Shown here piece after piece: positions 3,163 through 56,084 of a stretch of 64,000 bases of DNA. The stretch spans positions 1-64,000 of the forward strand of contig JADFYO010000005.1 in NCBI GenBank assembly GCA_015233015.1, given 5' to 3'. The DNA comes from Nitrospirota bacterium (lineage in GTDB: Bacteria > Nitrospirota > Thermodesulfovibrionia > Thermodesulfovibrionales > Magnetobacteriaceae). Numbering within the stretch: the first letter of the stretch is position 1; every line of letters begins with the position of its first letter. The notes below the pieces were generated by a model that searched no databases, was not told where the DNA came from, and saw nothing but the letters and a program-made list of their open reading frames with translations. The translations under genes and the position numbers were made by a program.

Positions 3163-3813
3163 ATGCAGCGTTCAGGTGCACTAAAGAGTTTTATCGAGAA
3201 GGCGGCGGGCGTGCCCATCGACCTTACTATCACTGATAATTCTAAGAGCATGTTATCTCTCAGGCATGGTCATAAGGGGGATGTGCATGTCCGCATTCAT
3301 CGTATGTTTTTAGACGCCGGGGCCGCCGTAATCCAAGAGATTGCGAATTTTATCAAAAACCGGAGGAACAAGACCCCGCTTACCCGGGAGTTTATCAGGG
3401 AGAACCATAGCGCCATCGAAATACCTCCCAAAAGACGCGCCGTTACCAGCTCTGAGGGGAAATATCATAATCTCAAACTCATTTACGAGGCCATCAACGA
3501 AGAGTATTTTAACGGTCAGCTCGCCCTTGACATCACCTGGGGCAGGAGGCAGACAAAGACCGTTTACCGAAAGAGACGGCTTGGCAGCTATGACAGTACA
3601 GGCAGTCTGATACGAATACATCCCGCTCTCGATAAGTCTAACGTGCCGCGATATTTCATCGAATACGTGGTATATCACGAAATGCTGCACGCAGCCCTCG
3701 GCATTCAAGTGAAAAATGGCAGACGCTCTATCCACGGCAGAGAGTTTAAACGCAGGGAACGGCTATTCAGGGATTTCGACAGGGCGGATGAATTTCTGAA
3801 ATATAAGCTCTGA
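3163..3813 (+). CDS. SprT-like zinc metalloprotease-fold protein
   Basis: 216 residues. The C-terminal half carries a zinc-protease signature: H-E-M-L-H at 172-176 (two His ligands and the catalytic Glu), preceded by Y-V-V-Y and followed by a third possible ligand, H191, in S-I-H-G-R-E-F. The segment L-I-Y-E-A-I-N-E-E-Y-F-N (107-118) is typical of the start of SprT domains. The N-terminal 95 residues are unassigned. SprT/Spartan relatives in eukaryotes cleave DNA-protein crosslinks; most bacterial ones are uncharacterised. Start is ATG at 3163 with only a weak ribosome-binding site, so the N-terminus is uncertain. It converges tail to tail with the ferredoxin gene, with no gap. Confidence 0.75.
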   Translation: MQRSGALKSFIEKAAGVPIDLTITDNSKSMLSLRHGHKGDVHVRIHRMFLDAGAAVIQEIANFIKNRRNKTPLTREFIRENHSAIEIPPKRRAVTSSEGKYHNLKLIYEAINEEYFNGQLALDITWGRRQTKTVYRKRRLGSYDSTGSLIRIHPALDKSNVPRYFIEYVVYHEMLHAALGIQVKNGRRSIHGREFKRRERLFRDFDRADEFLKYKL

Positions 3814-12266: not shown

Positions 12267-12354
12267 ATGAGCTATGATTATTAACCAAACAGGACATTTC
12301 TACTTTGCTATGACACCTTCGGCGTTGATTTTACAATGCGTGTCGTGTTAATGT

Positions 12355-12540
12355 AAATAAAGTTTGGCTGGATATAAGGGAAGAGAAGTGTGATACTTCC
12401 GCTGCCCCGCAGCCGTGATGGGAACGAAAACCCTGTGTTGTTTGCCACTGAGGAAGGCTCTTGTTTGAGAAGACGCCTTGGGAAGGCGGGTGAGTAGGAA
12501 AGGCCCTGAGCCGGAAGACCTGTCCAGTGAAATCACGAGG
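12355..12540 (+). promoter_or_regulatory. Cobalamin riboswitch
   Basis: Contains the family hallmarks in order: GAAGTGTGATACTTCCGCTG followed by CCCCGCAGCCGTGAT, then CCACTG with GAGGAAGGC, and near the end the B12 box GCCGGAAGACCTGTC at about 12510-12524. It lies upstream of cbiK and should repress the cobalt uptake/chelation operon when adenosylcobalamin is plentiful. Confidence 0.93.
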
Positions 12541-12585
12541 GTGGATGACTGTGAGTGTTTTGCAAACAATTGTTGAAGCGCGTGG

Positions 12586-46193: not shown

Positions 46194-46385
46194 AAGGGCA
46201 AGACCGCCTGCCCTGTTGGTGATTATATGAGAAAGTTATTCCGACTCACGTAAGTTCGGGAGCCTTAGTAAGAGCGCTCAGAGAGCATGCCGCTTTAGGC
46301 GGAAGCCCAACGCGTTCTTTTCGGCACCCACCTGTGAAAGCAGGGACTTAACTTTCTTGTGTACACCGCAAGGGCGGGTTTTATT
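46194..46385 (+). ncRNA. ssrS: Probable 6S RNA (SsrS)
   Basis: About 190 nt, GC-rich and non-coding. It contains elements remembered from 6S RNAs: TTCCGACTCACGTAAGTTCG-like 5' bubble strand, GGGAGCCTT, the apical hairpin GCCGCTTTAGGCGGAAGCCC, and CACCTGTGAAAGCAGGGAC near the 3' end. CCGCC near 46204 can pair with GGCGG near 46373 to close the rod. 6S RNA lies next to rarA in several bacteria, including Bacillus, and rarA follows here. 6S RNA binds the sigma-70 holoenzyme in stationary phase. An SRP RNA or tmRNA was considered and fits less well. Confidence 0.7.
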
Positions 46386-51894: not shown

Positions 51895-51970
51895 TCCTGG
51901 GTAGCTCAGCCGGCAGAGCGGGTGGCTGTTAACCACTTGGTCGGGGGTTCGAATCCCTCCCCAGGAGCCA
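51895..51970 (+). tRNA. tRNA-Asn (GTT)
   Basis: 76 nt with encoded CCA. Acceptor TCCTGGG/CCCAGGA, discriminator G, anticodon loop CTGTTAA (GTT) on stem GTGG/CCAC, T-arm GGGGGTTCGAATCCCTCC. It marks the left end of an integrase-bearing element and is the likely attachment site; the tRNA remains intact. Confidence 0.96.
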
Positions 51971-52310: not shown

Positions 52311-52922
52311 ATGGCTAAAACCAATTTTACGATGTTTGACAACGATCACCTTGAGGCGCTCTCAAAAACTAAACTCCGTCAGGAGACGTACCGCACATAT
52401 CTGGTTATTGTCCGCAAGACCGCAGGCTATCAAAAGAACGATGATCAAATTTCTTTAAGTCAGTTCCAGATGGCGACGGGCCTGTCAAAACGGAACGTGC
52501 TGAGAGCGCTTAACGATCTAATCAATCATCATATGATCATTAAAATTAAGCAAATCGGATGTTGCCGTTACAGTCTTACGCCGGTTGATAAATGGTTATC
52601 GGGGGGGGGTAGTCCAGCCACCCCCAGGGGGGGTAGTGGAGCCACCCCAGGGGGGGGTAGAAATTACGTACAAGGTGTCCTATTTACCCCCGATTTGGGT
52701 GTCTCAGCTGCCCCCTACAATATAAAGTATATAAACAATACAAAAGAAAGCGAAAAAAGATTATGTAAAATTACGACAGACGGATTAACTAAAGGCGAAA
52801 TACTACGACACGGCATGAAGAATAATTGTTTCGATCAAGGTGAAGAATGCAATGAGGACTGTCTCGTCTACGGGAAATTAAATTTTATCAAAATAAATCG
52901 AATAATGAATAAGGAGGAATAA
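52311..52922 (+). CDS. Phage replication protein O-like, winged-helix
   Basis: 203 residues. The N-terminal 90 residues match a Rep_O/winged-helix pattern: L-S-K-T-K-L-R-Q-E-T-Y-R-T-Y-L-V-I-V-R-K-T-A-G, S-L-S-Q-F-Q-M-A-T-G-L-S-K-R-N-V-L-R-A-L. Next comes a Gly/Pro/Ser-rich segment encoded by three long G tracts, then a C-terminal Cys-containing region (C-F-D-Q-G-E-E-C-N-E-D-C). Rep_O domains bind phage origins. The G tracts are prone to slippage, so the C-terminal half may be read variably. Confidence 0.65.
   Translation: MAKTNFTMFDNDHLEALSKTKLRQETYRTYLVIVRKTAGYQKNDDQISLSQFQMATGLSKRNVLRALNDLINHHMIIKIKQIGCCRYSLTPVDKWLSGGGSPATPRGGSGATPGGGRNYVQGVLFTPDLGVSAAPYNIKYINNTKESEKRLCKITTDGLTKGEILRHGMKNNCFDQGEECNEDCLVYGKLNFIKINRIMNKEE
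52601..52657 (+). repeat. Three long G tracts in the rep-like gene
   Basis: Runs of about 9, 7 and 8 G at 52601-52609, 52627-52633 and 52650-52657, separated by near-repeats TAGTCCAGCCACCCCC and TAGTGGAGCCACCCC. Each unit can also pair its C run with the next G run. The tracts meet the length pattern of a G-quadruplex, but a fourth run is lacking. Confidence 0.85.
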
Positions 52923-52923
52923 C

Positions 52924-53799
52924 ATGAATACCTGTCCGACATGTGGTGCATGTGTGCTATATGATTTAAAGGCAGTTGACTCAGTGAATGAATTAATGAC
53001 GCAATGGATTAATCACCTTGAGGCAGCCGGACGTTCTTATGCCCACATACGAAAATTGAAATCAAATCTAAGGCATCATATAAGCCCGACAATGGGCAAT
53101 CGCGATGTCAAGACCATTTCCTCAAAGGATGTCTTTAATTTCTATTCAGAGCTGCTTGAAAAGAACCTGGCAGGCAAAACTATCAAGCATATCTTCGACG
53201 CTCTGAAGAGCCTGCTCAATCATCTATACGATCTTGAGGTCATTTCAAAAATACCGATGTTCCCGAACATTAAAGTGTTGCCGGCGGCCAAACACTGGAT
53301 AAGTGTTGAGACACAAAATCAGATCTTGAATCACCTATCGTCGAAATATTTCCTTTTTATTCGTGTATTGATGGAAACCGGTATGCGTCCTGGTGAGGCT
53401 CGCGCACTGAAACTCCGGGACATCGATGGAACTATCATCACCGTCGAGCGTGCGATAGATGAGCGTGGCAATATACGTCCGACTAAAACGAATAAAGTCT
53501 ATCGATACCCGGTATCATCGGGCCTTATATATCAACTACGGACTCGATATCATGACTATCTGCCTGAGACTCCGTTATTCGAATTATCCAAAAGCGGAAT
53601 TCAGAACGCCTGGACTAGGGCCTGTAATATTGTCGGGACATCGATCCCGCTATATCAGGCGTGCCGGCATAGTAAGGCATCGCAAATCAACGAGGCCTGC
53701 GAACGAGATCGGCTTTGCCAGCTTCAAGCAGCTCTGCAGCATGAGCATGTGGCCACAACTCTGAAATACTATACCCTGGGATCAAAGGAGAGACTATGA
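52924..53799 (+). CDS. Tyrosine recombinase (integrase)
   Basis: 291 residues; AAGGAGG precedes ATG 52924. An unusual short N-terminus with C4-x2-C7-x2-C10 is followed by a SAM-like core-binding domain (about 20-110). Catalytic domain: box I Arg155 in G-M-R-P-G-E-A-R, box II Arg248-His249 in C-R-H-S-K-A-S, His273 in L-Q-H-E-H, nucleophile Tyr282 in T-T-L-K-Y. The usual H three before Arg248 is Gln. The nearby tRNA-Asn is the expected target. Overlaps the next small gene by 4 bp. Confidence 0.9.
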   Translation: MNTCPTCGACVLYDLKAVDSVNELMTQWINHLEAAGRSYAHIRKLKSNLRHHISPTMGNRDVKTISSKDVFNFYSELLEKNLAGKTIKHIFDALKSLLNHLYDLEVISKIPMFPNIKVLPAAKHWISVETQNQILNHLSSKYFLFIRVLMETGMRPGEARALKLRDIDGTIITVERAIDERGNIRPTKTNKVYRYPVSSGLIYQLRTRYHDYLPETPLFELSKSGIQNAWTRACNIVGTSIPLYQACRHSKASQINEACERDRLCQLQAALQHEHVATTLKYYTLGSKERL

Positions 53800-53990
53800 C
53801 CAGACTTGAGAAGGCGCTTGACAGCATTTGGACAGGCCAGTATATAGCAACGGCAGATATTGGAGATTATGACATCGACATGATATGTAAACTGCTCAAG
53901 AAAAAGAATATAGCGATATATTATTCGGATAACGAGATCAAGTGTATCTGGAAGTCATATGTTAATGGACGCTTTCCGGATAAGAAATAG
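53796..53990 (+). CDS. Small protein following the integrase
   Basis: 64 residues, starting in an ATGA overlap with the integrase stop, so probably coupled in translation. Acidic helical N-terminus (L-E-K-A-L-D-S-I-W-T-G-Q-Y-I-A-T-A-D-I) and a basic C-terminus (Y-V-N-G-R-F-P-D-K-K). The size fits an excisionase or other accessory factor, but no HTH is clear. Confidence 0.6.
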   Translation: MTRLEKALDSIWTGQYIATADIGDYDIDMICKLLKKKNIAIYYSDNEIKCIWKSYVNGRFPDKK

Positions 53991-54113
53991 AGGATAGGAT
54001 TTAGAGGTAAGCTGCTCTGATGATCCAGACGCGGTGCCCTGGCGTTTACATCTCGTTTCCCTTTCGTGGTATAATTAAGCACCCATAATCCAAGATGTAA
54101 CATTCGTCAGACA

Positions 54114-54138
54114 TGGCCGGCGGGCTTCTCGCCGGCCA
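54114..54138. terminator. Hairpin after the integrase operon
   Basis: GGCCGGCG and CGCCGGCC form an 8-bp GC-only stem around GGCTTCT. It could end the integrase transcript but is not followed by a T run. Confidence 0.4.
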
Positions 54139-54192
54139 CCTCCAATTTAATTATGTCGAATTCGACACCGAGCAATCACACGAGGCATAACT

Positions 54193-54315
54193 ATGTATCT
54201 CCGAACTAAGGGCGCTTATATGGTTCCCTGCAGATACTGTTCGTCTATCATAGCGAACCCGGGCCGCTCAACCCGCATTCATTGCCCGACGTGCGGTAAA
54301 CCTCTTGACGCCTAA
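54193..54315 (+). CDS. 40-residue zinc-ribbon protein
   Basis: ATG 54193 to TAA 54315, GAGG 7 bases upstream. The product has two C-x2-C knuckles, C-R-Y-C and C-P-T-C-G-K-P-L, 14 residues apart between pairs. This is the layout of phage Com-type or other mini zinc ribbons. No function assigned; the strong ribosome site and intact Cys pairs argue for a real gene. Confidence 0.6.
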   Translation: MYLRTKGAYMVPCRYCSSIIANPGRSTRIHCPTCGKPLDA

Positions 54316-54392
54316 ACCCCTGTAATACAGGATATAATTAAATATGTTTTAGTTATACCAGGAACATTCAAGAGGCCGCGGTGATGTCATTT

Positions 54393-54582
54393 ATTTTTGT
54401 CCTCACCAAAAATGACCGTCATGCCGTGGGCGGTCGTCCTTTCTCCAGATCTTTTCAGATAACCGTATCATCAATGTCCTCACCATTGATGATATGAAAA
54501 TTGTCTTCACCAATTTTCGTCTTTTGTAGTTGTCTTTTTCCCGATGCCGTTTTTGCTGGTGGTCCCTAACACCTGCAAAAAC
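54393..54582. other. Array of hairpins sharing a conserved loop
   Basis: Plus-strand reading: ATTTTTG-TCCTCAC-CAAAAAT (54393-54413), ATCATCAATG-TCCTCAC-CATTGATGAT (54467-54493), GAAAATTG-TCTTCAC-CAATTTTC (54496-54518). The stems are unrelated in sequence yet perfectly paired; the seven-base loop is the same except one base. A fourth hairpin with a 13-bp stem (one mismatch) and loop GTCCCTAA is at 54549-54582, and GACCG/CGGTC closes another at 54414-54435. On the minus strand the loops read GTGAGGA, GTGAGGA, GTGAAGA. No good ORF covers the region, and 54316-55209 otherwise holds only the long inverted repeat. Confidence 0.75.
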
Positions 54583-54812
54583 CGTGACCGCGCGGAGCGC
54601 GGGCACGAACGCTCTGCCCAAACTTTCCCATAATCAGGACGTCTTTACGTTCGCCGAAGGCGATTTCGCGTAGCGAAACAAGGCGAGTCCGTTATTATCT
54701 TTGAATCTTTGGACCCTTATTAGTCATCAACCCGTTTCCCTTATTATTCCCTGCTATCTTTTATTACTCTTCACCCATTAAACCTCTTTCACATCAGGCA
54801 TGAACCAACCAG

Positions 54813-54972
54813 CCCCAAATTATACATAACTGTTTCTTATCGGTTATTTTTTTTATCCTGTAAAATTAAACGAATTAATAATTACCTTAGAGTCTTTTGG
54901 ATATTATTAATTCGTTTAATTTTAAAAAAAATGGACGATAAGAAAGAGTTATGTAGAATTTTATTTTGGGGG
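54813..54972. repeat. 160-bp near-perfect inverted repeat
   Basis: Inner arms TAAAATTAAACGAATTAATA(AT) at 54861-54882 and the exact inverse at 54903-54924 around a 20-base loop. Pairing continues outward with few mismatches: CATAACTGTTTCTTATCG (54825-54842) matches the right-hand CGATAAGAAAGAGTTATG (54936-54953), and CCCCAAA / TTTTGGGG end the arms. No ORF. This is the form of a fold-back MITE or of two inverted transposon ends. Confidence 0.85.
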
Positions 54973-55209
54973 GCGGTAAACACACGGCACCAACATCAAG
55001 CCCGGAGTCCTTCACATCCCCATCAGACCAAGTAAAACAAGCGTTGGCATGGTTTTGCAATCCCCACCGCAAAACTAATGCCAACGCGGCTCTCTCGAGG
55101 GGATTGCGGAGACGGCAGCAGCGACCGTAGGGAGCTGCGGGAGGTGTCGAGGGATTGCGGACCAGGCCCGGAGGTTCAGGGGATTCGCCGGAGTGGCCCG
55201 GAGGTTCAG

Positions 55210-55467
55210 CTATATGATGCCGCTGATACGACGTTCGTCAGGGTTTGGCTTTCGAGCGTCCAGGCGATCTGCGAAAGGGTCTTTGAGTGTGAGATTGTTG
55301 TTCGGCGTGATTTCAGAGTCTGGTATTTGCGTTTTGGAACAGGTATTGAAGTAATGCCTAAGCGCATCTTTGATGACACTGCCTTTTGATTTGCCATATT
55401 TGGCGACCATGAGGTTTAATTTCTTGTCCTGATAGTCCTCGATGCGGACAGATAAGAGCTTCGACAT
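55210..55467 (-). CDS. Ribbon-helix-helix (CopG-like) DNA-binding protein
   Basis: 85 residues; GGAGG 5 bases before ATG 55467. N-terminal RHH: L-L-S-V-R-I-E-D-Y-Q-D-K-K-L-N-L-M-V-A-K-Y-G-K-S-K... with the strand V-R-I, then two helices and G-S-V-I-K-D-A-L-R. The C-terminal 40 residues are polar and probably disordered. No toxin gene is seen beside it. A 12-bp palindrome upstream may be its operator. Confidence 0.75.
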   Translation of the reverse strand: MSKLLSVRIEDYQDKKLNLMVAKYGKSKGSVIKDALRHYFNTCSKTQIPDSEITPNNNLTLKDPFADRLDARKPNPDERRISGII

Positions 55468-56014: not shown

Positions 56015-56046
56015 GGTCCGGGGTTCAAATCCACCCCCCGCCACCA
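56015..56046 (+). pseudogene. tRNA/tmRNA 3'-end-like fragment
   Basis: GGTCCGGGGTTCAAATCC then ACCCCCCGCCACCA: a T-loop (TTCAAAT) in a GC-rich arm and a terminal CCA, as in the last 30 nt of a tRNA or tmRNA, with imperfect T-stem pairing and no 5' half. It differs from the tRNA-Asn 3' end. A possible attachment-site remnant. Confidence 0.4.
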
Positions 56047-56084
56047 CATCCTCTTTGTTATAGCTCGGCGGGAAGTATCCTATC

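Follow-up and report, generated by a model that had tools for sequence, protein, structure and literature searches.

Why do three neighbouring hairpins carry the same loop when their stems are unrelated? The question is raised by a short segment of the 64,000-nucleotide stretch of DNA that was analysed (the window). Read on the minus strand, H1 (54393–54413) is ATTTTTG-GTGAGGA-CAAAAAT with a stem of 7 bp (ATTTTTG-TCCTCAC-CAAAAAT on the plus strand), H2 (54466–54494) is TATCATCAATG-GTGAGGA-CATTGATGATA with 11 bp (plus-strand loop TCCTCAC) and H3 (54496–54518) is GAAAATTG-GTGAAGA-CAATTTTC with 8 bp (plus-strand loop TCTTCAC). A G–C pair closes each minus-strand loop. A preliminary description had reported these three loops, all present on direct reading, on stems of 7, 10 and 8 bp with nothing in common. 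The lengths for H1 and H3 are correct and that for H2 is one pair short, while the stems are indeed unlike except for the two loop-adjacent pairs, G–C and then T–A. With up to one mismatch allowed, the pattern TGTCYTCACCA is found at three places in the window, where 1.3 are expected; these are H1–H3, and all are exact. The 3.78 Mb genome holds seven exact copies: H1–H3 account for three, a sister element for another three, and the seventh lies elsewhere. Perfect hairpins with a stem of at least 7 bp and a 7-nucleotide loop number 14 in the window, whereas 60 dinucleotide shuffles average 4.6. None of these window shuffles contained a pair or triple sharing its loop within 200 nucleotides, which rules out a chance origin of H1–H3.

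The three hairpins sit in a small element, apparently tRNA-integrated. The features recognised here are tRNA-Asn (51895–51967; anticodon read by eye), which is overlapped by an HTH gene, a RepO-like replication protein (Phage_rep_O; 52311–52922, plus strand), the tyrosine integrase of the element (52924–53799, plus strand), a 64-codon ORF, a possible short zinc-ribbon ORF (54193–54315) and an RHH_1 (CopG-family) gene (55210–55467, minus strand). A GC-rich hairpin, GGCCGGCGGGCTTCTCGCCGGCC, lies between the 64-codon and zinc-ribbon ORFs at 54110–54140. The right end of the element appears to be near 56020; at 56016–56060 it passes into the 3′ half of a tRNA-Met with its flanking DNA, like that at the left end of the sister element, which gives the impression that another element or an attP junction comes next. 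The integrase belongs to the phage-type tyrosine recombinases and has tRNA sites. Its relatives, at 56–70% identity, are found in five further genomes of the genus, with full-length frames in four and broken or partial ones in the fifth, and one named relative belongs to a Nitrospirae metagenome bin. Three related elements, L047, L048 and L050, have cargo downstream of the integrase, namely a PAPS-reductase-like gene in L047 (by Pfam) and L050 (by eye) and an apparent cytosine methyltransferase in L048 (by eye).

Within this element H1–H3 make up, on the minus strand, the 3′ portion of a conserved array of hairpins ∼0.75 kb long. The large hairpin U1 (55041–55087, minus strand) is GCGTTGGCATTAGTTTTGC-GGTGGGGATT-GCAAAACCATGCCAACGC; it has the form GCGYTGGCATTRGTTTTGC..GCAAAACCATGCCARCGC in the window and in L047 and a related version in the sister element, with an apical loop of the GTGRRGA type, and is present once in the sister and four times in L047. 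A long inverted repeat of 145 nucleotides follows (54817–54961), with 39-nucleotide arms that are 87% complementary and an inner perfect palindrome of 22 nucleotides. Considered as a dispersed MITE, this repeat is not dispersed in the genus, and no scattered copies of the MITE or REP type are found at unrelated places in the genomes: the hairpins and the long repeat occur only in these elements. Next come a hairpin at 54583–54607 (minus strand; CGTGCCCGCG/CGCGGTCACG), delimited by sequence comparison with the sister, and, adjoining it, U2 (54549–54582, minus strand; GTTTTTGCAGGTG-TTAGGGAC-CACCAGCAAAAAC), the fourth hairpin of the preliminary description, whose minus-strand loop is as given there.

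The sister element lies on contig C127 of the same genome, at tRNA-Met. Positions ∼53637–54687 of the window, which include the C-terminus of the integrase, are nearly identical to it (99%), and the flanks are clearly less similar (81–83% in the longer matched blocks); the near-identity reflects either recent mosaic exchange or an assembly artefact. At window position 54524/54525 the sister contains 113 extra nucleotides with another U2-type hairpin pair (loop ATGACGA), in which the foot is the same as that of the 54583–54607 hairpin and the upper stem is different (CGTGCCGGC/GCCGTCACG). This difference is copy-number variation within the array.

A diverged counterpart of the element is L047 (G001:C316), from another species of the genus, where the integrase is 61% identical as protein and 65% as DNA. 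Its plus strand at ∼3547–3669 holds H3, H2 and H1 in the same order: GATGATG-GTGAGAA-CATCATC at ∼3548–3568, TATCAGCAATG-GTGGGGA-CATTGCTGATA at ∼3570–3598 and ATTTCG-GTGAGGA-CGAAAT at 3649–3667. The H2–H1 linker is the same as well (54414–54465 in the window, minus strand; GGACGACcGCCcACGGCaTGAcGGTCA), and the overall order U1, long repeat, U-type hairpin, H3, H2, H1 is common to both arrays. The loops read G|GTGnnnA|C in six of the six H1–H3 hairpins of the two lineages. Listed directly and counted from the loop outward, the pairs in which both bases have changed and pairing is kept are four in H3, one in H2 and two in H1, seven in total; pairing is lost only at the outermost position of H3 and at that of H1. 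U1 also has double-changed pairs with pairing kept. These covariation counts are small because there are only two independent lineages. When the six hairpins are pooled in an alignment anchored on the loop, in which paralogues are mixed with orthologues, 93.8% of cells pair compared with 60% in shuffles, and the covariation score is 0.93 compared with 0.25. A two-sequence shuffle test of the module was not significant, H3 having been misaligned there by the aligner, and the direct list of compensated pairs is the better evidence. The module DNA is 69% identical between the window and L047, about the divergence of the integrase gene, and the structure has therefore been kept over real divergence.

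A coding explanation, for which the preliminary description had pointed to the weak minus-strand ORF 54403–54621, is rejected: stop codons interrupt each of the six reading frames of the L047 module, and that ORF has no open counterpart there. Simple duplication of H1–H3 is likewise rejected, as the stems are unlike and each hairpin has its own orthologue in L047. The central proposal of the preliminary description, one loop conserved on varying but complementary stems, thus holds in L047, which retains all three hairpins with matched double changes; uncompensated stems, which would have counted against that proposal, were not what we found.

Stems might also be kept perfect by mutation. In template switching during replication, a process that has been described (PMC8794818), one arm is copied onto the other, so that stems would stay perfect in the main without selection on structure. 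The four compensated pairs of H3 could come from a single arm-copying event of this kind, and the long inverted repeat, in which the ends are conserved between the window and L047, has changed in its interior and yet stayed palindromic. What this process leaves unexplained is the presence of one loop sequence on three unrelated stems, retained in two lineages whose integrases share 61% identity; conservation of the loop and of the linker calls for a function under selection. Template switching could help to keep the stems perfect, but the shared loop is not explained by it, and as the main cause we consider it improbable.

The reading that we favour, while giving it slightly less than an even chance, is that the array is a structured noncoding RNA, or a structured 3′ region of the RHH-gene transcript, that presents a repeated protein-binding loop. 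The RNA would correspond to the window's minus strand and would show one 7-nucleotide loop, G|GUGRRRA|C, repeatedly on otherwise free stems. This loop would probably be the site for a protein of the element or of the host, so that one transcript could gather several copies of that protein, in a titrating or scaffolding role. Synteny favours the GTGRRRA strand as the RNA: in both lineages the RHH gene precedes the array, on its 5′ side and on the same strand, while the integrase is oppositely oriented in the window and points the same way in L047. A PAPS-reductase-like gene lies between the RHH gene and the array in L047, where a terminator-like hairpin, also in favour of this strand, directly follows H1 on the array strand. 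Two related terminator-like hairpins with the loop AAACGGA are in fact found in L047, after the RHH gene (1984–2010) and after H1 (3678–3704), and flank the PAPS-reductase-like gene and the array like the ends of a cassette.

The module folds better than its own shuffles in both lineages. Several observations count against the RNA reading. Both strands of the window fold well, and the plus strand has the better folding z-score (−4.6 versus −2.5 for the minus strand); the window has no intact version of the terminator-like hairpin and shows no promoter excess; there are only two independent lineages; and L046, a relative that bears the RHH gene, is without the array.

Alternatively, the hairpins may act as DNA, single-stranded or extruded as cruciforms, as a replication origin or as a priming, segregation or processing site of the element. 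The loop would then be recognised by one of two proteins of the element, RepO-like or RHH, or by a host factor. The element encodes the RepO-like protein and, beside the array, the RHH protein, which belongs to a DNA-binding family, and the array occupies the middle of the element and includes the 145 bp near-palindrome, a feature usual for DNA sites. The two strands fold equally well in L047, as expected if self-complementarity alone matters, and an A–C mismatch in U1, which would be a G–U pair on the opposite strand, leaves room for a DNA role or for a role of that other strand. Against this, no gene for a relaxase, an HUH nickase or any other enzyme that works on single-stranded DNA was recognised in the element; an origin would not usually contain several hairpins in tandem on the same strand, and a plain double-stranded binding site needs no compensated stems. 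Among known DNA hairpin sites of mobile elements are integron attC sites, the hairpins of IS200/IS605 and REP sequences and rolling-circle origins, and some of these combine a conserved loop with a variable stem. They resemble the array in being palindromes in a mobile element, whereas the array repeats one loop in several tandem hairpins on the same strand, and neither an HUH enzyme nor TnpB nor an integron integrase was recognised beside it. On balance a role as DNA stands as the chief rival to the RNA reading and is somewhat less likely than it.

If the array is transcribed as an RNA, which protein would its loops bind? The preliminary description had pointed to CsrA/RsmA; an RNA of the element with GGA hairpins would then titrate the CsrA of the host. 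CsrA is encoded in all seven genomes of the genus (PF02599 above cut-off), and GGA is found in 4/5 loops in the window, 4/6 in the sister and 4/8 in L047. H3, on the other hand, is without GGA in both lineages (GTGAAGA and GTGAGAA), as are three of the four U loops in L047. The high-affinity form of the CsrA site is an ANGGAX hexaloop placed directly on the stem (PMC4005645), and each element has an ANGGA core in just one of its loops. Judged either by GGA in the loops or by loops of the ANGGAX type on the stem, the array does not qualify as a CsrA/RsmA-titrating RNA. The conserved feature is GTGnnnA and not GGA, and the CsrA reading is weak because several loops are without GGA and the conserved GTG is left unexplained; we regard it as highly doubtful. 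CsrB/CsrC and RsmX/Y/Z are nevertheless similar in architecture, with several same-strand hairpins that have a similar purine-rich loop on differing stems, and the host has CsrA. The array differs from them in its GGA-less loops, its GTGnnnA core, its location in a mobile element and the lack of an Rfam match.

A second group for comparison are the GOLLD and ROOL RNAs, large multi-hairpin noncoding regions of mobile elements that are often found near tRNA genes (PMC12286853). The array likewise is multi-hairpin, noncoding and part of a mobile element, as are these large ornate RNAs of phages and prophages, but it is shorter, has so far been found in one genus and is without an Rfam match. A same-strand 7-nucleotide loop complementary to TCYTCAC was not found in the window, and kissing loops of the GOLLD/ROOL kind are therefore not evident. 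None of the Rfam covariance models, those of GOLLD and ROOL included, gave a gathering-level match in the array; the weak matches by E-value are plant miRNA models, on the palindrome. Elsewhere in the window, 46202–46384 is a 6S RNA and 12353–12541 a cobalamin riboswitch.

The distribution of the array is narrow in the samples searched. Among 176 genomes of the order, model R1 gives 171, 170 and 147 bits for the three copies of the array and no more than 24.5 bits anywhere else; the weak matches of R1 and those of R2 (at most 23.6 bits) were judged to be noise. A sample of 396 genomes of the phylum gave one further match, in G397 (32 bits, E = 2e-4), which we attribute to chance, since neither a hairpin array nor an RHH gene or an integrase was seen alongside. 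In IMG/VR, 28 matches to CAATGGTGRGGACATTG were judged to be chance from a rough expectation and from model scores of at most 21 bits, and three matches to the linker pattern are all without hairpins. The large-hairpin patterns gave no match in IMG/VR, the RHH protein none in IMG/VR and plasmids, and the array DNA none in phages. It is possible that the distribution is wider than these samples of the order, the phylum, IMG/VR, phages and plasmids. In L046, tandem repeats of ∼31 and ∼35 nucleotides occupy the place corresponding to that of the array.

Whatever the acting molecule, the array clearly illustrates, in nature, how a loop can stay constant while the stems beneath it change pair by pair, and it is useful for telling selection from maintenance of hairpins by template switching. 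If it acts as RNA, it would represent a structured family that has not been described before, carried by a minimal mobile element and having a defined loop motif usable as bait in pull-down experiments. More speculatively, and at rather low probability, small integrative elements may possess a new family of RNAs whose heptaloop GUGRRRA, carried on many interchangeable stems, captures several copies of an RNA-binding protein of the element or the host. By titrating that protein or by assembling a ribonucleoprotein, the element would regulate its host or a helper phage.
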